Assembly (NCBI RefSeq): GCF_900110855.1
Contig: NZ_FOFA01000004.1
Coordinates: 1-64,000 of the forward strand
DNA from: Microlunatus flavus
GTDB taxonomy: Bacteria > Actinomycetota > Actinomycetes > Propionibacteriales > Propionibacteriaceae
Length of the DNA stretch: 64,000 nucleotides
Reading direction: 5' to 3'
Shown: piece after piece, positions 44,393 to 64,000 of the stretch
Numbering within the stretch: the stretch's first letter is position 1
Layout of the letters: each line of letters starts with the position of its first letter
The notes under the pieces: generated by a model
The model's database searches: none
Told to the model about the DNA's origin: nothing
What the model saw: the letters and a program-made list of their open reading frames with translations, nothing else
Program-made: the position numbers and the translations under genes

Positions 44393-45298
44393 ATGAGCGA
44401 GAGCACGAACGGCGCCGCACAGGTCGGCACGGACCGCGTCAAGCGGGGCATGGCCGACATGCTCAAGGGCGGCGTGATCATGGACGTGGTCGACGCCGAG
44501 CAGGCCAAGATCGCCGAGGACGCCGGCGCGGTCGCGGTGATGGCGCTCGAGCGGGTCCCCGCCGACATCCGCGCCCAGGGCGGCGTCGCCCGGATGAGCG
44601 ACCCGGACATGATCGACGGGATCATCGACGCCGTCTCGATCCCCGTCATGGCCAAGGCGCGCATCGGCCACTTCGTCGAGGCTGCTGTCCTGCAGTCCCT
44701 CGGCGTGGACTACGTCGACGAGTCCGAGGTCCTCACCCCGGCCGACTATGCGCACCACATCGACAAGTGGGCCTTCACGGTCCCCTTCGTCTGCGGCGCG
44801 ACCAACCTCGGCGAGGCCCTGCGCCGCATCTCCGAGGGCGCGGCGATGATCCGCTCCAAGGGCGAGGCCGGCACCGGCGACGTCTCCAACGCCACCACGC
44901 ACATGCGCACGATCCGCGCCGAGATGCGCCGCCTGCAGAACCTGTCCAAGGACGAGCTCTACGTCGCGGCCAAGGAGCTCCAGGCCCCGTACGCGCTCGT
45001 CGCCGAGGTCGCCGAGACCGGCAAGCTGCCCGTCGTCCTCTTCACCGCGGGCGGCATCGCGACCCCGGCCGACGCGGCGATGATGATGCAGCTCGGCGCC
45101 GAGGGCGTCTTCGTCGGCTCGGGCATCTTCAAGTCCGGCAACCCCGCGCAGCGCGCCGCCGCCATCGTCGCGGCCACGACGTTCCACGACGACCCCGGGA
45201 TGATCGCCAAGGTGTCGCGCGGTCTCGGCGAGGCCATGGTCGGCATCAACGTCGACGACGTCCCCGAGCCGCACCGCCTCGCCCAGCGCGGCTGGTGA
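44393..45298 (+). CDS. pdxS: Pyridoxal 5'-phosphate synthase subunit PdxS
   Basis: The 301-residue TIM-barrel synthase makes PLP from ribose 5-phosphate, glyceraldehyde 3-phosphate and ammonia supplied by PdxT. Conserved elements: [41 protein letters not shown] with the Schiff-base Asp/Lys region, [25 protein letters not shown], and [23 protein letters not shown]. The start is ATG with AGGGAGA upstream. Its stop overlaps the pdxT start by 4 nt. Confidence 0.97.
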
Positions 45299-45915
45299 CG
45301 CTGCTCGAGGCCAGCCCCGGGCAGTCCCTCGTGGGACCGGCGCACGGCCCGCTCGTGGGCGTCCTCGCGCTGCAGGGCGACGTGGTCGACCACCAGCGGG
45401 TGCTCACCTCGGTCGGCGCCCGGACGCGCAGGGTCCGCCGTCCTGAGGAGCTCGTCGGCCTCGACGGCCTCGTGGTCCCCGGCGGCGAGTCCAGCGTCAT
45501 CGACCGGCTCTCGCGCCGCTTCGCCCTGCGGGAACCCCTGGTCGCCGCCCTGCGCGCCGGGCTGCCCGCGTACGGCTCCTGCGCCGGGATGATCATGCTC
45601 GCCGACGCGCTCGTCGACGGCCTGCCCGACCAGCAGACCTTCGGCGGGCTGGACGTCACCGTGCGGCGCAACGCGTTCGGGCGTCAGGTCGACTCGTTCG
45701 AGACCGACATCGACCTCACCGGCGTCGACGGCCTCGTGCACGCGGTGTTCATCCGCGCGCCCTGGGTCGAGCGCACCGGCGACGGGGTCGAGGTGCTGGC
45801 GACCGCGGCCGGCCACCCGGTCGCCGTCCGCCAGGGCCCGCTGCTCGCCACGTCGTTCCACCCCGAGGCGACCGGCGACACCCGCGTGCACGGTCTCTTC
45901 GTCGCAAGCCTGTAG
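45295..45915 (+). CDS. pdxT: PLP synthase glutaminase subunit PdxT
   Basis: The 206-residue class I glutaminase delivers ammonia to Pdx[44 protein letters not shown] (nucleophile Cys), [17 protein letters not shown], and SFHPEATGD (His-Glu pair) are all present. The GTG start overlaps the pdxS stop (GTGA), giving coupled translation. There is a short N-terminal extension before VGVLALQG. Confidence 0.96.
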
Positions 45916-46101
45916 CGCCGCCGCACGGCCGGAGAACCTGCACCTGGTGGTCGCCGACCCGGGTCCTCGGCGGTGACCCACCGCTCTGCTCAGGATCCGT
46001 GGACCTCGAGCTGCGCGACGCGCGCCGGTTCGACCGCTGCGACCACGTCCGGCTCGTCCACGTCCCGCGTCGCCGACGCTCCCCGGTCCTCGGTCGGAGG
46101 G

Positions 46102-46731
46102 TCAGACCGCGTACGAGCGGATCAGCTCGATCGTCGAGTCCAGGGCGACCTCGAGCGGCACGGTGGTCCGGCGCGTCTGGGTGAGCAGCAGCCCGCCCTG
46201 GAGGGCGGCGAGCAGGGCCAGCGCGAGGCGGTCGGTGTCGGTCCCCTCCTGCAGCAGACCGCGCTCGCGCATCGTGGCCAGGCCCGAGCGGATCGGCGCC
46301 TCCCACTGCTCGAAGCCGGCGACCAGGTCCTCGCGCGCCTCGGGGTCCTCGTCGGCCAGCTCGGAGGCGATCGACCCGATCGGGCAGCCGCCGGCGCAGT
46401 GGCGCGAGCGCTGCAGCGTCACCAGCCGGTCCCGCCAGCGGCCCAGCGCCTCGAAGCTGTCGAGGGCGTCGAGCTCGGGTCGCTGAGTCGCGAGCACCGC
46501 CTCGGTCTGGTGGGCGATGACGGCCCGCATCAGCGCCTGCTTGTCGCCGAAGTAGTGGTAGAGCTGCGAGGCGCTCACCCCCGCCTCGCGCTGGATGTCC
46601 TCGACGCCGGTCCGGGTGACGCCGTGGGCGAAGACGAGCGTCGAGGCGGCCTCGACGATGCGGGCCCGCGTCGCCTCCCCCTTCGGGGTCAGCCGGTGCG
46701 AGGAGGGCCGCGGGACGGCGGACGTGCTCAT
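46102..46731 (-). CDS. TetR-family regulator, divergent from an SDR gene
   Basis: The 209-residue regulator has the TetR HTH at about residues 17-63 (ARIVEAASTLVFAHGVTRTGVEDIQREAGVSASQLYHYFGDKQALM). The C-terminal part contains RHCAGGCPIGSIASELADED, a Cys-containing segment of a TetR subgroup whose members often respond to electrophiles or quinones. ATG 46731 is chosen. Between it and the divergent SDR gene are two TGGAG-N6-CTCCA palindromes that are its likely operators. Confidence 0.9.
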   Translation of the reverse strand: MSTSAVPRPSSHRLTPKGEATRARIVEAASTLVFAHGVTRTGVEDIQREAGVSASQLYHYFGDKQALMRAVIAHQTEAVLATQRPELDALDSFEALGRWRDRLVTLQRSRHCAGGCPIGSIASELADEDPEAREDLVAGFEQWEAPIRSGLATMRERGLLQEGTDTDRLALALLAALQGGLLLTQTRRTTVPLEVALDSTIELIRSYAV

Positions 46732-46751
46732 GGAGCGAGGGTAGCCGACTT

Positions 46752-46800
46752 TGGAGTGGTGTCTCCAGAAACTTCCGACCATTCTGGAGCGATCACTCCA
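46752..46800. promoter_or_regulatory. Two TGGAG-N6-CTCCA operators between tetR and SDR
   Basis: TGGAGTGGTGTCTCCA (46752-46767) and TGGAGCGATCACTCCA (46785-46800) share arms TGGAG and CTCCA and are 33 bp apart centre to centre, about three helical turns, on the same DNA face. They sit between divergent starts 46731 and 46815. Confidence 0.7.
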
Positions 46801-46814
46801 CCGAAGGGAACCTC

Positions 46815-47564
46815 ATGACCACCGACCTCCTCGGGCGCACCGCGCTCGTCACCGGCGCGACCAGCGGCATCGGCCGCGCGGTCGCGCTCACCCTCGCCGC
46901 CCGCGGCGCCCATGTCGTCGTCTCGGGACGGGACGCCGAGCGCGGCGACGCCACCGTGGCCGCCGTCCGCGCCGCGCGGGGCACGGCGGACTTCGTCGCC
47001 GCCGACCTCACCGACGCGGCCAGCGCTCGGGAGCTGGCCCGGCGCGCGACCGAGCTGGGCGACGGTCACGTCGACGTGCTCGTCAACAGCGCGGGGATCT
47101 TCCCCTTCGGGCCGACCGCGGAGACGACCCCGGAGGACGTCGACCGGGTGCTGGCCGTGAACGTGACCGCGCCGTACTTCCTCGTCGCCGCGCTCGCCCC
47201 CGCGATGGCCGCGCGCGGGAACGGTGCGGTCGTCAACGTGACGACGATGGTGGCGGAGTTCGGCGCCGCCGGCATGGGCCTCTACGGCGCGAGCAAGGCC
47301 GCGCTCGTCCTGCTCACCAAGTCCTGGGCCGCGGAGTTCGGCCCGTCCGGCGTACGGGTCAACGCCGTGAGCCCGGGCCCGACGCGCACCGAGGGCACCG
47401 CCGCCATGGGTGAGGCGCTCGACCAGCTGGCCGCCGCCGGGCCCGCGGGGCGGCCTGGGCAGCCGGAGGAGATCGCCGAGGCGGTCGCGTTCCTCGTCGG
47501 CGACGCGGCGAGCTTCGTCCACGGCGCCGTGCTGCCCGTCGACGGCGGGCGCACAGCGGTCTGA
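46815..47564 (+). CDS. Short-chain dehydrogenase/reductase
   Basis: The 249-residue classical SDR has TGATSGIGRAVALTLAARGA (cofactor loop), VLVNSAGIFP, and the active site LYGASKAALVLLTKS (Tyr-x3-Lys). It ends VDGGRTAV. It probably oxidises or reduces an alcohol/ketone with NAD(P); substrate unknown. ATG 46815 has GAAGGGA upstream. Expression is probably controlled by the divergent TetR through the paired palindromes. Confidence 0.9.
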   Translation: MTTDLLGRTALVTGATSGIGRAVALTLAARGAHVVVSGRDAERGDATVAAVRAARGTADFVAADLTDAASARELARRATELGDGHVDVLVNSAGIFPFGPTAETTPEDVDRVLAVNVTAPYFLVAALAPAMAARGNGAVVNVTTMVAEFGAAGMGLYGASKAALVLLTKSWAAEFGPSGVRVNAVSPGPTRTEGTAAMGEALDQLAAAGPAGRPGQPEEIAEAVAFLVGDAASFVHGAVLPVDGGRTAV

Positions 47565-47612
47565 CCGGCACCAGCCGGGCGTGCCCGCCGGACCGGCGGA
47601 CACGCCTCGGGG

Positions 47613-48356
47613 TCAGCGGGTCGCGGCCAGGCCCGCGATCTGCTCGTGCACCCACGGGTAGAGCTCCTCCGCCGGCGTCGAGAGGCGCGTCTTGAGGTCG
47701 CGCGTGGTCCCGTCGGCCAGCACCTCCAGCGTGCCGTCGCCGACCGCGTCGTACGCCTGCGCGACGACGCTCGCGGCGGTGACCTTGGGGACGTCCCAGC
47801 CCGCCGTCATCGGGGTGTCGATCATGCCGACGAGCAGCCCGACGACCTGGGTGCCCTGGCCCTCCAGCTGCAGGCGCAACGCGTTCGTGGCCGACCACAT
47901 CGCCGCCTTCGACGCGGCGTAGCCGGTGGGCATGCTGATCCAGGCAGCCGCGGACAGGATGTTCAGGAGGGTGCCGCCGCCGTTCGCCCCGAGCACCGGG
48001 GCGAAGGCGTTGCTGAGACGCAGGGTGCCGAAGAAGTTGGTCTCGAAGATGCGCCGCAGCTCCTCCTCGGGGCCGGTGATCGTGTCGTCCGACGGGGCGA
48101 TCGCCGCGTTGTTGATCAGCACGTCGACGTCCGGCGCGGCGGCGACCGCGCGCGCCGGCGCCTCGGGGTCGGTGAGGTCGAGGTCGAGGGCCACGACCCG
48201 CGGGTCGTCCCAGCTCCGCGTCGAGCGGGCGGCGGCGTACACCTTGGCCGCACCGCGTTCCAGACCCTGCGCGACGAACTGCTCGCCGAGCCCTCCGTTG
48301 GCACCGGTCACCAGGACGTGACGACCGCTGAGTGATGTCGAGCGGGGTGACTGCAT
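47613..48356 (-). CDS. Short-chain dehydrogenase/reductase, divergent from a TetR gene
   Basis: The 247-residue SDR has VTGANGGLGEQFVAQGLERGA, VDVLINNAAIAP, and the active site GYAASKAAMWSATNAL. After the core comes a variable C-terminus with VGMIDTPMTAG. It resembles the SDR type often found next to a TetR regulator. The ATG at 48356 faces the TetR gene at 48438 across 81 bp that contain two GGGGA/CTCCCC palindromes. It is convergent with the SDR gene at 46815, 48 bp between stops. Confidence 0.88.
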   Translation of the reverse strand: MQSPRSTSLSGRHVLVTGANGGLGEQFVAQGLERGAAKVYAAARSTRSWDDPRVVALDLDLTDPEAPARAVAAAPDVDVLINNAAIAPSDDTITGPEEELRRIFETNFFGTLRLSNAFAPVLGANGGGTLLNILSAAAWISMPTGYAASKAAMWSATNALRLQLEGQGTQVVGLLVGMIDTPMTAGWDVPKVTAASVVAQAYDAVGDGTLEVLADGTTRDLKTRLSTPAEELYPWVHEQIAGLAATR

Positions 48357-48375
48357 CTAGACTCCTTGACTAAGT

Positions 48376-48414
48376 GGGGAACTCCCCCAGAAGCAGTATG
48401 TGGGGACACTCCCC
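48376..48414. promoter_or_regulatory. Two GGGGA/CTCCCC operators between SDR and tetR
   Basis: GGGGAACTCCCC (48376-48387) and GGGGACACTCCCC (48402-48414) share arms GGGGA and TCCCC about 26 bp apart. A TTGACT -35-like hexamer (48366-48371) abuts the first. The likely ligand is the downstream TetR protein. Confidence 0.65.
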
Positions 48415-48437
48415 GTTTGTTCAAGGAGGGTGGGCCC

Positions 48438-49013
48438 ATGGCGTCCGTCACAGGGACCGCGCGTCCGCTGCGCGCCGACGCCCGCCGCAACCGGGACGCG
48501 ATCATCACGGCGGCGCGCGAGGCCTTCGAGGCGGACGGCGTGCTGACGCCGCTCGACGCCGTCGCCACCCGGGCCGGGGTCGGCAACGCCACGCTCTACC
48601 GGAACTTCCCCACCCGCGACGACCTGCTCGCCGAGGTCATGCAGGCCGAGCTGGTCGACGCGTTCGCGGAGGCGGACGAGCTGGCGCGCACGCTGCCGCC
48701 GCGCGAGGCCCTGACGCAGTGGCTCGTCCGCCTGGCCTGGCAGCTGCGGATCTGGCACGACCTGCCCTACTGCCTGGCCAACGCCCACGCCGGCGCGGAC
48801 TCCCCCGTCAGCTCGACCTGCAACCCGGTCCACCTGCGCCTCGACGCGTTCCTCGACGCCGCCCGCGCCTCCGGCGACCTGCACGCCGACGTCGACGGCG
48901 CGACGCTGTACGAGCTCGTGCTCGCCGTCTCGTGGGCCACCGACCGTTTCCACGACGACCAGGACGCCGCCCGGCGCCGTGTCCTGCTCACCAGCGCCGG
49001 ACTGTTCGCTTAG
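48438..49013 (+). CDS. TetR-family regulator upstream of an MFS exporter
   Basis: The 191-residue regulator has an HTH at about residues 13-57 (RDAIITAAREAFEADGVLTPLDAVATRAGVGNATLYRNFPTRDDLL). This is the TetR subgroup with GVGNATLYRNFP, often governing SDR or MFS genes. ATG 48438 has AAGGAGGG upstream and follows paired palindromes. It reads toward the MFS gene, 218 bp away, which contains a hairpin. It likely represses both the divergent SDR gene and itself. Confidence 0.9.
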   Translation: MASVTGTARPLRADARRNRDAIITAAREAFEADGVLTPLDAVATRAGVGNATLYRNFPTRDDLLAEVMQAELVDAFAEADELARTLPPREALTQWLVRLAWQLRIWHDLPYCLANAHAGADSPVSSTCNPVHLRLDAFLDAARASGDLHADVDGATLYELVLAVSWATDRFHDDQDAARRRVLLTSAGLFA

Positions 49014-49231: not shown

Positions 49232-50449
49232 ATGACGAGCACCGCACCGGTCTCCGTCGCCCCCGCACCCGCACCCGCACCGGCGAACGCCACCGGGAGG
49301 ACCCGCTCGGGCTGGGCCGGCGTCATCGCGCTCATGGTCGCGGTCTTCACCCTCGTCACCAGCGAGTTCCTCCCCGCCAGCCTGCTGCCCCTGATGGCCG
49401 CCGACCTCGGCGTCTCCGAGGGCGTCGCCGGGCAGGTCGTCACCGCGACCGCGCTCGTGGGCATGGTCGCGGGCCCGTCGATGGCGCTGGTGTTCCCGCG
49501 CCTCGACCGCCGCCGCCTCATCATCGGGCTGCTGGTCCTCGCGGTGGTCTCCAACCTGCTGAGCGCGATCGCCCCGACGTACGCGGTCGTCGTCGTGTCG
49601 CGCCTGCTCCTCGGCGTCGCGCTCGCCGGCACCTGGTCGATGGCCCTCGCCGTCGCCTCCCAGCTCGTCCCGGCCGAGAAGCTCGGGCGCGCCATGTCGG
49701 TGGTCAACCTCGGCGTCTCCGCCGCCACCGTCGCCGCCGTCCCGCTCGGCGCGCTGATCAGCTCGTACTTCGGCTGGCGGGCCGTCTTCTGGGCCGTCGC
49801 GATCGCCACCGCCGCCGCCGTCGTCCTCTTCGTCGTCGCGATGCCGTCGATCCCGGCCGCGGCCAGCGACGGCATCCGCACGCTGCTGGCCGTGCTCCGG
49901 CGCCGCATCATCGTCCTGGGCCTGCTCGGCCTCGCGGTGATGATCGCCGGCCACTTCGGCAGCTACACGTTCATCCGCACCGCCGCCGAGGGCATGCCGA
50001 CGCTCACCCCCGCCCTGATCGCGGTCCTCCTCGCCGTCTACGGCGTCGGCGGCCTCGTCGGCAACGTCGTGGCCGGCCTCTTCGCCGACCGGCACCTCGG
50101 TGTCGTGATGGTGACGGTCCCGCTGCTGATGGCCCTGGCGATCGTCGGCTTCTCGCTCGCCGACGGTTCCGTGGTGCTCACCTTCGCCGCCGTCGCGGTC
50201 TGGGGCCTCGGCTTCGGCGGCATCCCGACCACGTCGCAGACCTGGGCGTCCCGCGCGGAGCCGGACCGCAAGGAGGCCGCCGGCGGGCTCTTCGTGGCGA
50301 ACTTCCAGCTCGCGATCGCGCTCGGCGCAGCCCTCGGCGGCGCCCTGCTCGACGGGTACGGCGTCCACACCGTCTTCGTCACCGGCGCCGTCGCCGTGGC
50401 CCTCGGCGGTGCGCTGTTCGCCTCGACACGCAGGCTCCTGCCGCACTGA
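49232..50449 (+). CDS. Major facilitator superfamily exporter (DHA1/AraJ-like)
   Basis: The 405-residue transporter has twelve predicted helices after a Pro/Ala-rich N-terminus. The first helices carry FTLVTSEFLPASLLPLMAADLGVSEGVAGQVVTATALVGMVAGPS (TSEF and motif D region) and RLDRRRLIIG (motif A). RTAAEGMPTLTPALI and WASRAEPDRKEAAGGLFVANFQLAIALGAALGG are typical of the AraJ/SotB sugar and drug efflux group. ATG 49232 has AAGGAG upstream. It probably belongs to the tetR regulon just upstream. Confidence 0.9.
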   Translation: MTSTAPVSVAPAPAPAPANATGRTRSGWAGVIALMVAVFTLVTSEFLPASLLPLMAADLGVSEGVAGQVVTATALVGMVAGPSMALVFPRLDRRRLIIGLLVLAVVSNLLSAIAPTYAVVVVSRLLLGVALAGTWSMALAVASQLVPAEKLGRAMSVVNLGVSAATVAAVPLGALISSYFGWRAVFWAVAIATAAAVVLFVVAMPSIPAAASDGIRTLLAVLRRRIIVLGLLGLAVMIAGHFGSYTFIRTAAEGMPTLTPALIAVLLAVYGVGGLVGNVVAGLFADRHLGVVMVTVPLLMALAIVGFSLADGSVVLTFAAVAVWGLGFGGIPTTSQTWASRAEPDRKEAAGGLFVANFQLAIALGAALGGALLDGYGVHTVFVTGAVAVALGGALFASTRRLLPH

Positions 50450-57522: not shown

Positions 57523-58287
57523 TCATGGCTGGCGATCCGGTCGGCGGGCCTCGACGAGGAAGCGGCTGGAGTGCGCGACGAAGGGTCCGTCGCTCACCAT
57601 CCGGTCGTGGAGCCGGCGCAAGGTCGGCCGGTACCGCTCGACGCTGAAGTCCGGCACCCACCAGACGCACGTGCGCAGGACGTAGACGATCGCCCCGACG
57701 TCGGCGAACTCGGCCCGCAGCCTCACCGACCGCAGGTCCACGACCTCGAGCCCGCACCGTTCCGCGGCCGCGCGGGCGTCCTCGGGCCGCCGCCACCGGT
57801 GCGCGTCGGGCAGGGGCCCGAGGAACGCCTCGCTCAGCTCGACCATGCTCGCCGGGCCCACCTGCTGGGAGAGGTAGGTCCCTCCCGGCGCCAGGACCCG
57901 GGCGATCTCGGGCCAGTCGGTGCTCACCGGGTGCCGGCTCGTCACCAGGTCGAAGACGCCGTCGACGAACGGCAGCGGTGTCGCACCGTCGTGGCCGAGC
58001 ACGGTGACGCCTCGCGGGCGGAGACGGTCGGCGGCCACCGCCAGGTTGGGCAGCCACCCCTCCGTCGCCACCGCGAGCGGCGGGTAGGTCCCCGCCTCGG
58101 CCAGCACCTCCCCGCCGCCCGTCTGCAGGTCGAGCGACGCGGTCGCGCCTTCGAGCCGCCGGGCGACGGTGCGGGCGTACGCCCACGGCGGGCGCTCCTC
58201 GCTGGCGCGGCCGTCCAGCCAGGAGAAGTCCCAGCCCTCGACGGCCACCGCCGACGCCTCGGCCACGAGGTCGTCGAAGCTGGGCAC
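57523..58287 (-). CDS. Class I SAM-dependent methyltransferase
   Basis: The 254-residue methyltransferase has SLDLQTGGGEVLAEAG (motif I with GGG), VTVLGHDGATPLPFVDGVFDLVTSRHPVSTDWPEIARVLAPGGTYLSQQVGPASM, and a DLRSVRLRAEFADVGAIVYVLRTCVWWVPDF C-terminal segment typical of a conserved actinobacterial family of unknown substrate. The gene lies 97 bp from the Fic start. The 112 bp up to the next minus-strand stop (58400) have no gene. Confidence 0.85.
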   Translation of the reverse strand: MPSFDDLVAEASAVAVEGWDFSWLDGRASEERPPWAYARTVARRLEGATASLDLQTGGGEVLAEAGTYPPLAVATEGWLPNLAVAADRLRPRGVTVLGHDGATPLPFVDGVFDLVTSRHPVSTDWPEIARVLAPGGTYLSQQVGPASMVELSEAFLGPLPDAHRWRRPEDARAAAERCGLEVVDLRSVRLRAEFADVGAIVYVLRTCVWWVPDFSVERYRPTLRRLHDRMVSDGPFVAHSSRFLVEARRPDRQP

Positions 58288-58399: not shown

Positions 58400-59233
58400 T
58401 CAGGGGCGCGGGCCGGCCGCCACGACCGCGCGGACCTCGTCGAGGTCCATCCGGTACGGCCCGACCTGCGTCAGGACCCAGCTCGCGCCGGCGTCGCCCC
58501 ACGCCTCGGGGTCGGTGTCCCCGGCGACCTGCACGACGAGCTCGACCGGCTCGTCAGGACGCCCGGCCGCCGCTCGCGCCGCGTCGATCGCCGTCCGGGC
58601 CTCGGCGACGTCCTCGGGTCCGCCGAGGCCGATGACGAAGTAGCCGTCGAACCGTGCGGCCCGGCGCTGCGGCGGCTTGTTGGGCCACCGGCCGCCGATC
58701 CAGAGCGGGATGCCTCCGGGACGGGTGGCCGGCGGGAGGAACGTGACTCCGGCGGCCCGGTGGTGCGGGCCGTCGTGGTCGACGCGCTCGCCGGACAGCA
58801 GGGCGGTGAGGACCTCGAGGCCCTCGTCGAGCAGCGCCGCGCGGGTCTTGGGGTCGACGACCTCGCCGAACGCCGACAGCTCTCCCCCACCACCGTCCCG
58901 GGCGCCGCCGTCGTCGCCGAGGCCGAAGCCGAGGACGAGGCGGCCGCCCGACAGCCGGTCCAGCGTCGCGGCCTGCTTGGCCACCACGTGCGGGCGGCGG
59001 CGGGACAGCGGGGTCACCATGATCCCGAGCTCGATGGTCGAGGTGACCATGGCCGCCGCTGCGAGGCAGATCCAGGGGTCGGCGATCTCGGTGACGGGGT
59101 CGGCGTAGAGCAGGTGGTCCCAGACGAACACGCCGTCCCAGCCCGCCTCCTCGGCCTGCCGGACCACGTCGGCGAACACCCGCGGGTCGGCCAGCGGGTC
59201 GAACGCCGGCAGGAAGAGCCCACGCCTCGTCAT
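58400..59233 (-). CDS. LLM-class flavin-dependent oxidoreductase
   Basis: The 277-residue TIM-barrel protein of the luciferase-like family has GLFLPAFDPLADPRVFADVVRQAEEAGWDGVFVWDHLLY at the N-terminus, LDRLSGGRLVLGFGLGDD in the middle, and GIPLWIGGRWPNKPPQRRAARFDGYFVIG near the end. Members use FMN or F420 as reductant; which cannot be read from sequence. The ATG overlaps the preceding stop by 4 nt (ATGA at 59230-59233). It is the last gene of the tldE-DUF4438 operon. Confidence 0.88.
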   Translation of the reverse strand: MTRRGLFLPAFDPLADPRVFADVVRQAEEAGWDGVFVWDHLLYADPVTEIADPWICLAAAAMVTSTIELGIMVTPLSRRRPHVVAKQAATLDRLSGGRLVLGFGLGDDGGARDGGGGELSAFGEVVDPKTRAALLDEGLEVLTALLSGERVDHDGPHHRAAGVTFLPPATRPGGIPLWIGGRWPNKPPQRRAARFDGYFVIGLGGPEDVAEARTAIDAARAAAGRPDEPVELVVQVAGDTDPEAWGDAGASWVLTQVGPYRMDLDEVRAVVAAGPRP

Positions 59234-60243
59234 CGCGCTCCCCCCGCCGCGACGGAGGGGTCCGACGGGAGTCCGGCCGCCTCGCGCGCCAGGCGGAGCG
59301 CCTGCGCGACCGGCAGCGCCGACGTCGCCGCCAGGTGCTCCGGGATCGCGCCCTCGCGCAGGACGGCGGCGACGTGCCGCAGCGCCGCGGTGAAGGAGTG
59401 CGCGTCGACGGTCGGGCTCTCGACCACGGGCTCCGACGAGGAGGACGAGCGGATCTCCACCTGCGCCCCCGGCGTCGGGTGCCAGGGGTTGTCGACGCGG
59501 ATGGTGCCCTCGGTGCCGAGCAGCAGCGTCGTGGTCTCCGGCTGGCGACGGAACCCGCACGTGAGCAGCAGCCGGCGCCCGTCCGCGTACGTGAGGACGC
59601 CGGCCGCCTCGACCTCGACCTCGACGCCGAGCTCGGCGGCGACCTGGGCCTCCGCGAGCGGCTGGCCGAACAGCTCGTGCGCGAGCCGCATCGGGTAGCA
59701 GCCGACGTCGGCGAGCGCGCCGCCGAACATGGGCGCGGAGAGCCGGATGTTCTCGGGCCTCGTGACGGGGAAGTGGAACGACGCGACGATCTCGCGCAGC
59801 TCCCCGATGGCGCCGGAGCCGATCAGCTCGACCACGCGCCGGTGCTGCGCCTGGAACGGGAAGACGAACGACTCCCACAGCAGGCCGCCGCTGGTCCGGG
59901 CCACGTCGAGCAGCGCGCGGGTGGCGACCGGGTTGGTGGTCAGCGGCTTCTCGCACAGCACGGCCTTGCCGGCCTCGAGCGCGGCCGCGGCCCACTCCGC
60001 GTGCAGCGGGTTGGGCAGCGGCACGTAGACGGCCTCGACCTCGGGGTCCTCCAGGACGGCCTGGTAGCCGTCGACGGCCCGCGTGACGCCGTGCTCGCGG
60101 GCCCACGCCTGCGTACGGTCGCGGTCACGCCCGCCGACCACCACGGCCACGTCGCCGGACTCGGCGAGGGCGGGCAGCAGCTGGGCGCGGGCGATGTTCG
60201 CGGTGCCGAGGACGCCCCAGCGCACCGGTTCGCGGGCGCTCAC
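59230..60243 (-). CDS. Gfo/Idh/MocA-family oxidoreductase
   Basis: The 337-residue two-domain NAD(P)-dependent oxidoreductase has an N-terminal Rossmann domain (VRWGVLGTANIARAQLLPAL; GxxxxA) and the family motif EKP in AGKAVLCEKPLTTN. ADVGCYPMRLAHELFG holds the active-site His region. The C-terminal domain is a beta-sheet scaffold. Family members act on sugars, inositols or related polyols. It starts at GTG, overlapping the GntR stop by 4 nt. Its role with the TldE/DUF4438 genes is unclear. Confidence 0.9.
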   Translation of the reverse strand: MSAREPVRWGVLGTANIARAQLLPALAESGDVAVVVGGRDRDRTQAWAREHGVTRAVDGYQAVLEDPEVEAVYVPLPNPLHAEWAAAALEAGKAVLCEKPLTTNPVATRALLDVARTSGGLLWESFVFPFQAQHRRVVELIGSGAIGELREIVASFHFPVTRPENIRLSAPMFGGALADVGCYPMRLAHELFGQPLAEAQVAAELGVEVEVEAAGVLTYADGRRLLLTCGFRRQPETTTLLLGTEGTIRVDNPWHPTPGAQVEIRSSSSSEPVVESPTVDAHSFTAALRHVAAVLREGAIPEHLAATSALPVAQALRLAREAAGLPSDPSVAAGGAR

Positions 60244-60965
60244 GCCTGCCCCACGTCCGGAACGGCCGCGGCGAGGAGGTGCCCGGGGACGGTGTTGCGG
60301 TCGGTGACGTAGTGGGCGTAGATGGCCTTCTCGATCTGTCGGGAGGTGCCGGTGCGCAGGGCGTCGCGGACCGGTTCGTGCCGGGCGCGCGCCGCGGTGA
60401 GGGCGAGGTGCTGGCGGTCGATCGAGGCGCGCATGAGGGCACCGATCTGGCCGTTGACGGTGGACCAGAGCTCGACGGCCCGCCGCCGTCCGGAGGCGTT
60501 GACGATGAGCCCGTGGAAGTGCACGTCGGCCTCCACGACGCCCTGCATGTCGCCCTGCCGCGCGGCCTCGTCCATCCGGTCGAGCGCGGCGGCCAGCGCC
60601 TCGTCGAGCCCGACCTTCTCCTCGCGGGTCAGCGCCTTGGCGATGCCGGCCTCGAGCACGTAGCGGGCGAAGCAGACGTCGTCGGCGTCCTCCTCGCTCA
60701 TCCGGGTGACGACGCTGTGCCGCCGCGGCGAGATCTCAATCAGGCCCTCGGAGGAGAGGCCCCGCATCGCCTCGCGCACCGTCGCGCGGCTGACCCCGAG
60801 GTCGGAGGCGATCGTCGCCTCGACCAGCCGGGCGCCCGCGGGCAGCTCGTTGTTGAGGATCTGGCGGCGCAACGCGTTGCGCACCGCCTCCGGCAGCGAC
60901 TCGTGCTCGAGCACCGCGCGCACCCCCTGCCTGCCGGCCGCCTGGACCAGCGTGTCGGACGTCAT
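60240..60965 (-). CDS. GntR-family (FadR-type) transcriptional regulator
   Basis: The 241-residue regulator has an N-terminal winged HTH (SLPEAVRNALRRQILNNELPAGARLVEATIASDLGVSRATVREAMRGLSSEGLIEISPRR, about 22-82) and a helical FCD sensor domain (LDRMDEAARQGDMQGVVEADVHFHGLIVNASG with the metal-binding Asp/His pattern; ARHEPVRDALRTG). FCD regulators often bind carboxylates or sugar acids. It is embedded between DUF4438 and Gfo/Idh genes with 4-nt overlaps at both ends, so it most likely controls this operon. Confidence 0.92.
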   Translation of the reverse strand: MTSDTLVQAAGRQGVRAVLEHESLPEAVRNALRRQILNNELPAGARLVEATIASDLGVSRATVREAMRGLSSEGLIEISPRRHSVVTRMSEEDADDVCFARYVLEAGIAKALTREEKVGLDEALAAALDRMDEAARQGDMQGVVEADVHFHGLIVNASGRRRAVELWSTVNGQIGALMRASIDRQHLALTAARARHEPVRDALRTGTSRQIEKAIYAHYVTDRNTVPGHLLAAAVPDVGQA

Positions 60966-61831
60966 CCTGCCCTGCCCGAGGTGCTGCCGAGTGCTCCCAC
61001 AAGGGCGTTCACCGTGAGTCCCTCGTGCGTCTGAGCGTCCGGGACGGCCCGCAGCAGGGCGGCCGGCCCGCAGAGCAGCGGGACCAGGCCGGGACCGTGG
61101 CCCGGCATCGGGCTGTCGCCGTGCACCACGAGGCCGACCGTGACGTGCCCGCGGCGGTAGCCCATGTTGTGCCGCACGTCGAGGTCGGCGACGGCGAGCA
61201 GGTCGCCCAGCCGCAGCACGGCGAGCAGCGGGTCGCCGGCCGGGAAGGCGAGGTCGACGTCCCACTGCTGGGCCGGCCGGCCGATGCCGTTGCCGGCGAG
61301 GCGGCTGGGGACGACCCCGCGCACGCCGACCTCGACGCCGTCGGCACCGAGTCGGATGCCGAGCGCCGGCGCGAGCCACGGGTCGAGGTTCAGCAGGGCG
61401 ACCCCGTCGGGCAGGCCGTCGAGCGTGGCGCCCTGGCCGTGCGCGCGGACGCTGAACCCGTCGCCGGGCCGGAGCCGCTCGAGCGCCTCGTCGGGGAGCC
61501 AGACCAGCAGCCGGCCGTCCTCGCCCCGCTTGCCGAACACCCGTCCCTCGGCCCCCGCCGCCGCACCGGAACGGACGACGACCGGGTTGCCGACGCACCC
61601 GTACGCGGTCAGGGCGTGCCGGGCCGGCTGGTCGGGGTGGCCGACGCTGACGCCGGGGGCGACGTGGTCGCCGACGGCAGAGGTGACGAGGTCGCCGAGC
61701 GCGACGCCGAGGACGATGCCGCCGTCACCGACCGGCACGTACGGGTGGCCGTCGACGTCGATCCGGTACGGCGTGCTGCCCATCGCGGGCGCCTCGGCGA
61801 CCCCGGCGAGCTTGACCGCGACGCTCCTCAC
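60962..61831 (-). CDS. DUF4438 protein (first copy)
   Basis: The 289-residue protein resembles the DUF4438 family from memory (a structural-genomics target of unknown function): PYVPVGDGGIVLGVALGDLVTSAVGDHVAPGVSV, YGCVGNPVVVRSGAAAGAEGRVFGKRG, and YRRGHVTVGLVVHGDSPMPGHGPGLVPLLCGP. The last is the most characteristic. No signal, helix or catalytic motif is recognised. The GTG start overlaps the stop of the second copy by 4 nt. The two copies share architecture but differ markedly in sequence. Confidence 0.8.
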   Translation of the reverse strand: MRSVAVKLAGVAEAPAMGSTPYRIDVDGHPYVPVGDGGIVLGVALGDLVTSAVGDHVAPGVSVGHPDQPARHALTAYGCVGNPVVVRSGAAAGAEGRVFGKRGEDGRLLVWLPDEALERLRPGDGFSVRAHGQGATLDGLPDGVALLNLDPWLAPALGIRLGADGVEVGVRGVVPSRLAGNGIGRPAQQWDVDLAFPAGDPLLAVLRLGDLLAVADLDVRHNMGYRRGHVTVGLVVHGDSPMPGHGPGLVPLLCGPAALLRAVPDAQTHEGLTVNALVGALGSTSGRAG

Positions 61832-62718
61832 GCCGCCACCCCCTTCGCAGCGGGCGCGGCGTCGGCGACGTACGCACCCAGGTTGGCGTCGCGGTCGAGC
61901 ACGACGTGGAAGGCCTCGGCCGGACCACTGAAGAGCGAGGTCGGACCGGGCCCGTGGCCGAATAGCGCGCACTGCCCGGTCGAGATCGTGCCGACGGTGA
62001 TCCACCCCGGGCGGAACCCGCGCCCCCAGCTGTGGTCGGTGTCGCGCAGGACGACGAGGTCGCCGATGCGCAGCCCCTCCAGGCCGAGCGAGAGGGAGGC
62101 GTCGAGGCCGGCGTACGCACCCATGAGGTCGGTGTTCGCGTACTCCGACGACATCCCGCCGCCGGCACCGGCGGCGTCGGCGGGGACGTCGACGGCCACG
62201 TGCACCTCGAGGCGTCCGTCGGCCGTGGTGCCGCCGGGCAGGGCCGCGAGGACGGCGGGGTCGAGGTTCTTGACCCGGACCTGCGGGTGGTCGGTGAGCA
62301 CGAGGCCCTGGCCGCGGGCGCGGACCGTGACCTGGTCGCCCACCGTCGCGCCCTCGAGCACGGCGTCGGCGGCGTCGACGAGGACGTACGCGTGCTGGCC
62401 GATCGCGACGCCGCGCCCGCCCGCCGACGCACCGGAGACGAGGGTGACCTCGTTGCCGACGCAGGTGAGGTACTGCAGGGCGAAGTTCGCGGCCGGGTCC
62501 GCGTGCCGCACCGACAGGCCCGGCTCGAGGTGGTCGCTGGCCCAGCCCGTCGCCGGCTCGCCGAGGTGGCCGGCGAGGGTCACGCCGCCCATGCCGGGCA
62601 GCAGGAACGGCGAGCCGTCCGCGTCGACCCGGTAGGCGTGCCGGTCGGCGGTCGCCGGCCACACCTCGCCGGCCAGCAGCTGGGTCACCAGCCGGTCGGC
62701 GTTGCTCTCGACCTTCAC
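61828..62718 (-). CDS. DUF4438 protein (second copy)
   Basis: The 296-residue protein has the same order of conserved pieces as its neighbour: PFLLPGMGGVTLAGHLGEPATGWASDHLEPGLSV, YLTCVGNEVTLVSGASAGGRGVAIGQHA, and WGRGFRPGWITVGTISTGQCALFGHGPGPTSLFSGP. Tandem DUF4438 genes may form a heteromer. The GTG overlaps the upstream TldE stop by 4 nt. It looks soluble and cytoplasmic. Function unknown. Confidence 0.8.
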   Translation of the reverse strand: MKVESNADRLVTQLLAGEVWPATADRHAYRVDADGSPFLLPGMGGVTLAGHLGEPATGWASDHLEPGLSVRHADPAANFALQYLTCVGNEVTLVSGASAGGRGVAIGQHAYVLVDAADAVLEGATVGDQVTVRARGQGLVLTDHPQVRVKNLDPAVLAALPGGTTADGRLEVHVAVDVPADAAGAGGGMSSEYANTDLMGAYAGLDASLSLGLEGLRIGDLVVLRDTDHSWGRGFRPGWITVGTISTGQCALFGHGPGPTSLFSGPAEAFHVVLDRDANLGAYVADAAPAAKGVAA

Positions 62719-64000
62719 GCGGTCTCCTCCTCGGGGGACTGGGATGTCGCAGCGGCGCTGCCCGCCGAGCCGAAGCGGAAGCCCCGGACCCGGAGGGCGG
62801 GAGCGGAGACCGCACCGTTCCACACGTTGGCCAGCGGCTGGGCCAGCACGTCGGCGCCGAGCGCGTCGACGCGCGACAGCACGCCGAACACGGACTCGGT
62901 GAAGCGCGCCGGCCGCACCGGGGTGGTCAGGCGCCCGTCCTCGATGAGGAAGCAGGCGTCGCGGCTGCCGCCGGTCAGGGTCGTGGCGGCCGGGTCGACC
63001 ACCCGGAGGTACCACAGTCGCTGGACGTAGACGCCGCGCTCGACGCCGCCGACGAGCTCGTCGACGGACGCGCTGCCGGGCGCCATCGTCAGGCTGGCGG
63101 GCGCGGGGTGCGGCGTCTCCTCGCGGGCGATGTGCGCGTGCCCGGTCGCCGGCAGCCCGGCGCGCGCCGCGCTGGCCCGGTCGGTGACGGCGTCGGCGAC
63201 GACGCCGTGGTCGAGCAGCGGGACGCGCACGGAGTCGGTGCCCTCGGGGTCGAAGGGGAACGGGAGCCCCCGCACGGCCCGCGGGTCGTCGGCCACGTCG
63301 ACCGTCTCGGGCGCGACGCGCTCGCCGCGGCGCCGCGCGACCGCACCCACCCCGTCGGCGACCGCGTCGCCGGTGAACCCGTACGCGTGGAACCCCTCGA
63401 GCAGCTCGCCGGTGGCGAGCGGGCCCAGGACGACGTCGTACGTCCCGTCGGCCAGGTCGACCCGGCCGCGAGCACGACCGGCCTCCTCCACGGTGCGGGC
63501 GACCACGGCATCGAGGTCGAGGACGGCGAGGCGCCGGTCGAGGTCGACCCAGTGCGAGGTGCCGTCGTCGATGCGGACCGTGAAGGTTCCGAAGGCCTCG
63601 GTCGCGGCGGCGTAGCGCTCGACGCCGTCGTGGTCGACGACGGCGAGCTCGGTGACCGCGCGACCGAGCATGCCGAAGGCCTCGCCTCCCGCGGCTCCGG
63701 CGGCGCGCATGAGCCCGCGCACCGCGTCGACGCGCTCCGGGGTGCCCCAGGCCGCGGTGGCCGGGTCCCACAGCGTGCCGGGAGCGAGGACGCCGACGTC
63801 GTGCCCGGACGCCGGCGCCGGCAGCACGGGCAGCGGTCCCGCGGCCCGGGCGAGCGCCGCGGCTCGTCCGGTCGCCCGGCGACCGGCGTCGGCCGCTCCG
63901 GCCAGGTCGGTGGTCGCCACCCGGGCCGAGCGGCCATCGACGACGGCGCGGACCATCAGCTGGCGCTCGTGCACGTCCTGCGGCTGATGCACGCGGTCGA
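62715..64000 (-). CDS. TldE/PmbA-like protein, N-terminus beyond the window
   Basis: At least 428 residues of the TldD/TldE (PmbA) family are visible, read to the right edge. Visible pieces: HERQLMVRAVVDGRSARVATTDL, GEAFGMLGRAVTELAVVDHDGVERYAAATEAFGTFTVR, DVVLGPLATGELLEGFHAYGFTGDAV, GLPFPFDPEGTDSVRVPLLDHGVVADAVTDRASAARAGLP, and VQRLWYLRVVDPAATTLTGGSRDACFLIEDGRL. I see no HExxxH metal motif, so it fits the non-catalytic TldE partner; TldD would be expected upstream, outside the window. TldD/E is a peptidase acting on unfolded peptides and on modified peptides such as microcin B17. GTG 63992 is probably not the true start. Confidence 0.85.
   Translation of the reverse strand, partial: DRVHQPQDVHERQLMVRAVVDGRSARVATTDLAGAADAGRRATGRAAALARAAGPLPVLPAPASGHDVGVLAPGTLWDPATAAWGTPERVDAVRGLMRAAGAAGGEAFGMLGRAVTELAVVDHDGVERYAAATEAFGTFTVRIDDGTSHWVDLDRRLAVLDLDAVVARTVEEAGRARGRVDLADGTYDVVLGPLATGELLEGFHAYGFTGDAVADGVGAVARRRGERVAPETVDVADDPRAVRGLPFPFDPEGTDSVRVPLLDHGVVADAVTDRASAARAGLPATGHAHIAREETPHPAPASLTMAPGSASVDELVGGVERGVYVQRLWYLRVVDPAATTLTGGSRDACFLIEDGRLTTPVRPARFTESVFGVLSRVDALGADVLAQPLANVWNGAVSAPALRVRGFRFGSAGSAAATSQSPEEETA

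Follow-up and report, generated by a model that had tools for sequence, protein, structure and literature searches.

The closest described relatives of the genes treated here are known from separate settings. The TldD/TldE pair of Escherichia coli (MEROPS M103) holds its metal through residues H262, H267 and C454 of TldD (PMC5810440). Further family members are the lincosamide proteins LmbIH/CcbIH and LmbQ/CcbQ, which a 2015 paper placed in the PmbA_TldD superfamily (PMC4351081) and a 2025 review tabulates as N-deacetylases (PMC12945683). Going by this tabulated listing, a small-molecule substrate has precedent for the TldD family. For DUF4438, the described member is Thermotoga maritima TM1086 (3dcl and 3n99), a protein of unknown function whose structure was released in 2008. 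In a literature search with most subscription journals outside its coverage, the name DUF4438 occurred in no paper, and no account of TM1086 function was found by title or abstract, one paper dealing with crystallisation. Likewise, among the matches listed, no title or abstract described an operon of TldD, Gfo/Idh/MocA oxidoreductase and ATP-binding cassette (ABC) transporter genes, and no paper covered combined three of five terms for the pathway. Such an operon, with twin DUF4438 genes, is described here from Microlunatus flavus. It reaches into the window, the stretch of DNA that was analysed, which comprises the first 64000 bases of contig 13 (NZ_FOFA01000004.1) of the 4.79-Mb genome. Its parts are of known kinds, while their combination is without a description found in the literature search.

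The full system comprises 18 genes in two arms, of which the window holds only the operon tail, cut by the window end; coordinates beyond 64000 continue the window numbering along the same contig. Traced past the window end, the minus-strand operon has 14 genes, starts at 73563 and runs in the order SDR1, OppF, OppA, OppB, OppC, OppD, Gfo1, TldD, TldE, D1, D2, GntR, Gfo2 and LLM, D1 and D2 being the two DUF4438 paralogues. The divergent plus-strand arm encodes a 2-hydroxyacid dehydrogenase (HDH), a DHDPS-family protein, a second short-chain dehydrogenase (SDR2) and an aminotransferase. With moderate confidence, the system is read as an inducible regulon by which the cell takes up and breaks down a single amide- or peptide-linked compound. 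An Opp/Dpp-type importer would bring the compound in, and TldD/TldE would cut its amide bond in the cytoplasm. Judged by family, oxidation and splitting of the product would fall to Gfo1, Gfo2, both SDRs, the LLM protein, the twin DUF4438 proteins and the DHDPS-family lyase or dehydratase, with the aminotransferase and the D-2-hydroxyacid dehydrogenase handling amino and 2-oxo groups. The DUF4438 proteins would act jointly on the core, downstream of Gfo1, as their neighbourhood suggests. The GntR-FCD regulator, encoded within the operon, would repress both arms through the palindrome TTGTCGACAA in the shared promoter region until an acid of the pathway appears. Taken together, the genes would suit import of a small amide or peptide conjugate, its cleavage and oxidation, and finally the breaking of a 2-oxo acid; the order of these steps is a proposed one.

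The importer has all the parts of the Opp/Dpp type: a family-5 substrate-binding protein (SBP), OppA (69990-71603, PF00496 E 5.2e-95), two BPD_transp_1 permeases, OppB (68878-69828) and OppC (67991-68881), and two ATPases with oligo_HPY, OppD (66804-67994) and OppF (71600-72712), all on the minus strand. Its genes adjoin and overlap the enzyme genes, with SDR1 (72709-73563, minus strand) in front. The importer class is thus assigned by family, and the ligand would be the amide- or peptide-linked compound; OppA itself matched 12 curated models, none above its own cut-off.

The genes of the operon are tightly packed. Four-base overlaps occur at 12 of the 13 junctions, the exception being OppA-OppB. 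An earlier note on this DNA, made from the letters alone, had described the tail as a six-gene operon with five ATGA/GTGA overlaps. Read directly on the minus strand, these overlaps are present as described: GTGA at 62715-62718 (TldE/D1), 61828-61831 (D1/D2) and 60240-60243 (GntR/Gfo2), and ATGA at 60962-60965 (D2/GntR) and 59230-59233 (Gfo2/LLM). Pfam matches over cut-off back every gene name of the six window genes, as the note had named them, and the tldD gene that it had suggested looking for to the right of the window is present with intact active-site residues. Its six genes hold as the tail but fall short of the complete unit: an Opp/Dpp importer and the divergent arm bring the system to 18 genes. 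The tight stoichiometry that it drew from the overlaps is not supported. Elsewhere on the contig, over 95 kb, possible four-base overlaps also occur in 8 of 46 same-strand pairs (gaps below 50 bases in 21 of the 46), a rough background from a crude codon-usage gene call whose scorer was trained on the operon genes. The frequency of overlaps in the operon is above this local background, and in relatives from the genus overlaps recur at 10/12 (G001), 11/12 (G104) and 10/12 (G229) junctions from OppF to LLM, and at 8/11 from OppF to Gfo2 in locus L008 of Nostocoides sp. Soil756. By themselves, overlaps imply at most translational coupling and are no proof of fixed stoichiometry.

The sole gap, 161 bp between OppA and OppB (69829-69989; L003:14830-14990), contains 47-nt inverted arms that are 81% complementary. 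It is an insert of this genome only, as the same gap measures 2-3 nt in the four other loci with both genes. Partial matches to the insert lie at C11:143336-143427 (80%) and C13:280934-280988 (76%); it is possibly a small mobile element.

The packing bears on a rival explanation, namely a biosynthetic or maturation cluster in which TldD/TldE trims a modified precursor peptide, similar to those of ribosomally synthesised and post-translationally modified peptides (RiPPs), and the oxidoreductases tailor it. TldD/E proteins are described in connection with leader removal (PMC10885120), and many oxidoreductases are present. Nevertheless, a precursor gene has no intergenic room inside the operon, a check that covered the operon and left the small open reading frames of the divergent promoter region outside. 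Moreover, no recognised RiPP-modifying family appears in Pfam scans of 18/18 genes, and the importer is of the Opp/Dpp uptake type. A hydroxyacid dehydrogenase and a DHDPS-family enzyme are taken as signs of catabolism, which further speaks against peptide maturation, and this explanation is considered very improbable. The earlier note had suggested that the gene set may process or degrade a modified peptide or an amino-sugar-like compound and had pointed to a possible precursor-peptide gene; degradation fits the locus, a precursor peptide is not supported, and the observations speak neither for nor against an amino-sugar-like substrate. As there is no room for a precursor gene, the locus is read as an inducible uptake-and-catabolism regulon.

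The amide-cleaving step of this regulon is assigned to TldD (64157-65641, minus strand, 494 aa, HESVGH at 261) and its non-catalytic partner subunit TldE (62715-64160, minus strand, 481 aa, PF19289; the 3' part at 62715-64000 lies in the window). According to the alignment, TldD retains H262, E263, H267, E270, D272, C454 and K456 of E. coli TldD. TldE has E, G, Y and V at the positions of H262, E263, H267 and C454, keeping only D272. The pair thereby shows the hallmarks of M103 at the level of sequence, that is, a TldD with HExxxH and the remote Cys ligand and a TldE without them. The conserved active site suggests that the pair would hydrolyse an amide bond of the imported compound. A second TldD/TldE pair is encoded on contig 17 of the same genome, with a TldD 38% identical to the one described here, and may do the general TldD/TldE job. 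Throughout the phylum, 135 of 396 genomes (own included) have a TldD match at E <= 1e-50, and the best four relatives besides the own copy are 45-51% identical.

The two DUF4438 genes, D1 (61828-62718, minus strand, 296 aa) and D2 (60962-61831, minus strand, 289 aa), each match both Pfam halves, PF14505 and PF20999, over cut-off, and TM1086 at E 1.3e-49 and 7.4e-40, respectively. A model of D1 from a six-row alignment (mean predicted local distance difference test score, pLDDT, 76.7; 48 residues below 50) gave TM-scores over the query of 0.78-0.81 against the 7 chains listed for 3dcl and 3n99. These 7 chains, all TM1086, were the only Foldseek matches at E <= 0.001 among the best 50 of 805 rows, and an acetamidase/formamidase-like fold, considered at first, was dropped on this result. 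D1 is thus predicted to have the TM1086 fold, and D2 would share it by homology. In the DUF4438 tree, a D1 clade (support 100/99) and a D2 clade (100/100) each include one copy from the metagenome-assembled genome (MAG) Centralia MAG_135, with TM1086 and the D2 of the MAG flagged by the program as long branches. As each clade holds a MAG copy, the duplication is older than the split of these lineages. Across six D1, six D2 and TM1086, 45 residues are invariant, among which D62, H63, C86, N89, Q137, D226, D228, R236 and H255 are proposed as candidate active-site residues. One catalytic and one decayed subunit had been expected; since both paralogues keep the same 45 residues, and D1 agrees with TM1086 at 6 and D2 at 7 of their differing sites, no decay is indicated. 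D1 and D2 would most likely form a hetero-oligomeric enzyme for the core of the compound, a suggestion that comes from their neighbourhood. A bolder reading takes the DUF4438 proteins as an enzyme type of their own: D1 and D2, paralogues of ancient origin and obligately paired, would cleave a compound activated by a Gfo/Idh dehydrogenase. They would stand at the core of an undescribed catabolic route for a sugar-like natural product with an amide linkage, and TldD/TldE would serve it as a dedicated amidase for small molecules. It is put forward tentatively and is rather doubtful.

The two Gfo/Idh/MocA oxidoreductases, Gfo1 (65638-66807, minus strand, 389 aa) and Gfo2 (59230-60243, minus strand, 337 aa; PF01408, PF22725), both keep the EKP motif, at 106 and 98, respectively. 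This motif is one point for a rival explanation by sugar 3-oxidation: Gfo1 would oxidise C3 of a glycoside, the DUF4438 pair would cleave the resulting 3-keto glycoside in the manner of DgpB/DgpC following DgpA, Gfo2 would reduce the 3-keto sugar, and TldD/E would remove an amide side group. In accordance with such a route, the best PDB match of Gfo2 is a sugar 3-ketoreductase (E 8.9e-44), the PDB list of Gfo1 includes DgpA, and the best NCBIfam match of Gfo1, far below cut-off, is levoglucosan dehydrogenase. However, DgpA is only fifth for Gfo1 (E 4.9e-23), behind an uncharacterised oxidoreductase as top match, and the best NCBIfam match of Gfo2 is xylose 1-dehydrogenase, below cut-off. Gfo/Idh similarity seldom fixes the substrate, and DgpB/C belong to families other than those matched here; the Pfam matches of the 18 genes contain no family of DgpB/DgpC-type cleaving subunits, no sugar kinase and no glycoside hydrolase. 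DUF4438 is also without a significant fold match beyond TM1086 in the Foldseek rows considered. Sugar 3-oxidation therefore appears unlikely. No other match to Gfo1 at E <= 1e-70 was obtained in the 396 genomes, few candidates being scored per genome (3-4 in the rows listed).

Regulation of the catabolic regulon is ascribed to the GntR-FCD protein (60240-60965, minus strand, 241 aa; PF00392, PF07729). Six stretches of 11.5-20.9 kb were scanned for the palindrome TTGTCGACAA (in G001, G104 and G229, just the stretch on the promoter side), and each has it a single time. In the genus it lies upstream of SDR1, in L008 upstream of OppF, and in the MAG locus L009 upstream of the SBP gene. The L008 copy comes after a TTGACA box, and the L009 copy lies about 35 bases before the likely ATG of the SBP gene. 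In the divergent promoter region, the four genus carriers share a TTGACA box with CATCGTCGATTGTCGACAACCGAC after it; closer to HDH they have a second site, GATCGTCGATTGTCGACCGAA, which differs by two bases in G001. In the present locus, the operator-like sites are ATTGTCGACAAC at 73635-73646 and TCGATTGTCGACCGA at 73781-73795. Genome-wide, G001, G104, G229 and G693 (the Nostocoides genome) have ATTGTCGACAAY at the operon and nowhere else, the own genome (G000) has it at one further place, and G012 and G239 each have it at a single palindromic place; it is absent from 3/10 genomes, including the MAG, where the last base of the site is G. The reversed-pattern control gave 0 in 10 genomes. The further place in the own genome is a second fully palindromic ATTGTCGACAAT site (G000:C9:258285-258296), and these extra sites in G000, G012 and G239 are perhaps targets of another regulator. 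For the 15-base form with <=3 mismatches, 3-4 sites per locus were counted, only modestly above shuffle means, so that the argument depends on the exact palindrome and on where it lies. Binding of the regulator to the palindrome is a prediction, the site itself being observed.

Conservation was assessed over six loci: the own one (G000), those of the genus relatives G001, G104 and G229, L008 and L009. The order OppF-OppA-OppB-OppC-OppD-Gfo1-TldD-TldE-D1-D2-GntR-Gfo2 is identical in five of them, all but L009, and a kept gene order, for which the earlier note had suggested looking in other genomes, is thus present. SDR1 and the whole divergent arm were seen in 4/6 loci, the arm being kept in the three other genus carriers. 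It consists of HDH (73946-74959, start uncertain; PF02826 E 1.8e-49), the DHDPS-family protein (74964-75941; PF00701), whose PDB kin include L-2-keto-3-deoxyarabonate dehydratase, SDR2 (75938-76744) and the pyridoxal-phosphate (PLP) aminotransferase (76741-77949; PF00155 E 1.7e-63), all on the plus strand. The last operon gene, an LLM-class flavin/F420-type oxidoreductase (58400-59233, minus strand, 277 aa; PF00296 E 1.6e-45, with a match to TIGR03619 below that model's cut-off), follows Gfo2 in the four genus genomes (69-88% identity in G001, G104 and G229); in L008, an LLM protein of 41% identity is encoded behind HDH. Upstream of OppF, the L008 genome has only SDR (36%) and aminotransferase-like (29%) matches of unclear kinship. 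Locus L009, from a distant genome, keeps Gfo1, D1, D2, HDH, Gfo2 and GntR at 53-65% identity, with a family-5 SBP gene immediately before Gfo1. Between its HDH and Gfo2 lies a DMFA2_C protein (L009:12298-15186; PF20254, E 1.4e-85) similar to the large subunit of N,N-dimethylformamidase. This is a possible non-homologous replacement of the TldD/TldE step; the DMFA2_C family also occurs in 4/5 searched genomes with the TldD/E form, which counts against the idea. The MAG itself encodes a TldD/E pair elsewhere, on a different contig.

A scan of genome contigs with one protein as query gave two loci. PF14505 scored over cut-off in 4/20 genomes of the genus (own included), 4/293 of the order (the same four), 1/396 of the phylum (own only) and 1/198 of the class of the MAG (the MAG itself), and among 14 control genomes T. 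maritima was the sole match. The system is thus rare and patchy in the sampled genomes. No relative of D1 or D2 was found on plasmids and no DUF4438 relative on viral contigs. Two sub-threshold matches were dropped, one in G160 (21.4 bits, in a 16-kb locus without any operon gene) and one in G683 (21.7 bits, under the Pfam cut-off). The patchy distribution within the genus would also suit detoxification or resistance, in which TldD/TldE and the dehydrogenases inactivate an imported antibiotic of peptide or amide type, and the sources cited above (PMC10885120, PMC4351081, PMC12945683) connect TldD/E-family proteins with antibiotic-type peptides and amides. The importer, aminotransferase, DHDPS-family enzyme and 2-hydroxyacid dehydrogenase nevertheless exceed the needs of inactivation, and general Pfam scans of the 18 genes, with no resistance library searched, gave no resistance-type family. 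Resistance is hence regarded as improbable.

Some neighbouring features deserve mention. A methyltransferase-like gene, named by eye, is located at 57523-58287 of the window, 112 bases past LLM; as the downstream flanks of three genus relatives contain no match to it, it is probably outside the operon. A search around the LLM end found no promoter- or terminator-like site. In translated comparisons (tblastx), stretches at window positions ~44400-49000 match sequence that flanks the G229 operon at its far end, by SDR1 and HDH, and stretches at ~49300-50300 match sequence on the LLM side in G104. The operon therefore probably resides in a related but rearranged chromosomal neighbourhood within the genus. 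Beside the L008 operon (L008:15513-20024), translations inspected by eye suggest a LysR-like regulator, a 2-oxoglutarate/Fe(II)-oxygenase-like gene, a cupin-like stretch and a Tm-1-like pair.

Several observations weigh against the uptake-and-catabolism regulon. No single substrate compound is singled out, and the reaction of DUF4438 cannot be read from the sequence or fold evidence. The 20.8-kb L009 locus lacks TldD/E, there is no tblastn match between its SBP and OppA, and a match to OppB, C, D or F was found neither in this locus nor in the neighbouring 20 kb and 4 kb; thus, neither TldD/E nor the importer is universal to the module. The presence of ATTGTCGACAAT in G012 and G239, both without a DUF4438 match, means that this type of site is not unique to the regulator. 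The four best TldD relatives sit without an importer, three of the four on contigs below 12 kb. Among 19 TldD loci fetched from the 396-genome set, several on short contigs, a full Opp-type set accompanies the pair in one (G496), ABC-ATPase matches stand isolated in three (G475, G423, G517), with SDR and partial Gfo1-like matches as well in G517, G565 has an LLM-like match, and 14 showed nothing but TldD and/or TldE. A TldD match was present in 61 plasmid records; among the three fetched, only the Burkholderia one has the pair next to a complete importer, and no Opp set was seen in the Pseudomonas and Mycobacterium loci. Finally, the 2015 lincosamide paper proposed a regulatory, not a catalytic, role for the TldD-family proteins (PMC4351081).

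For the DUF4438 family, the locus provides a concrete and testable genetic context with a regulator and its candidate operator, an importer and a defined gene set. It further suggests that unrelated bacteria have recruited TldD/TldE, a pair known chiefly for its part in peptide maturation, to operons linked to importers, here and on the Burkholderia plasmid. Compared with known systems, TM1086 is homologous to D1 and D2 over nearly the whole length. The pair of E. coli is likewise adjacent, with the ligands kept in TldD and lost in TldE, whereas the pair described here is embedded in an operon with importer and dehydrogenases. The lincosamide proteins are alike in family membership, by which, and not by sequence comparison, they are likened here, and in their listed action on small-molecule amides, but they belong to biosynthetic clusters. 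On the Burkholderia stagnalis plasmid, a peptide-type importer directly precedes an overlapping pair (TonB receptor-SBP-permeases-ATPase-TldD-TldE), while the stretch seen contains neither Gfo/Idh nor DUF4438.

Further parallels are offered by plasmid clusters with Opp-type genes. Eight plasmid records have Gfo1 relatives at E <= 1e-60 (39-44% identity), and all five loci fetched (three Deinococcus, Ensifer and Lichenicola) combine Opp-type importer genes with DUF885, and the DUF885 papers listed, at the level of titles and abstracts, gave no function for such clusters. HDH relatives occur in 16 plasmid records at E <= 1e-40; in the four fetched, they adjoin Opp-type genes in Bosea and Microvirga and an OppA-like gene in Roseomonas, and lie near an OppF-like and two GntR-like matches in Rhodococcus. 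An importer, a peptidase or amidase, a Gfo/Idh protein and a 2-hydroxyacid dehydrogenase thus appear to form a recurring theme, although TldD/E and a full-length Gfo1 match were together in no examined locus outside the genus and L008. The Opp-Gfo/Idh-DUF885 clusters resemble the Microlunatus system in the Opp importer, the Gfo1-like protein and either an HDH-like gene (33-35%; Ensifer, Lichenicola) or an SDR2-like gene (41-43%; Deinococcus, along with RraA and an aminopeptidase by annotation). They differ in that DUF885, with other peptidases by annotation, takes the place of TldD/E and DUF4438, and in a ketopantoate-reductase-like protein present in four of the five.

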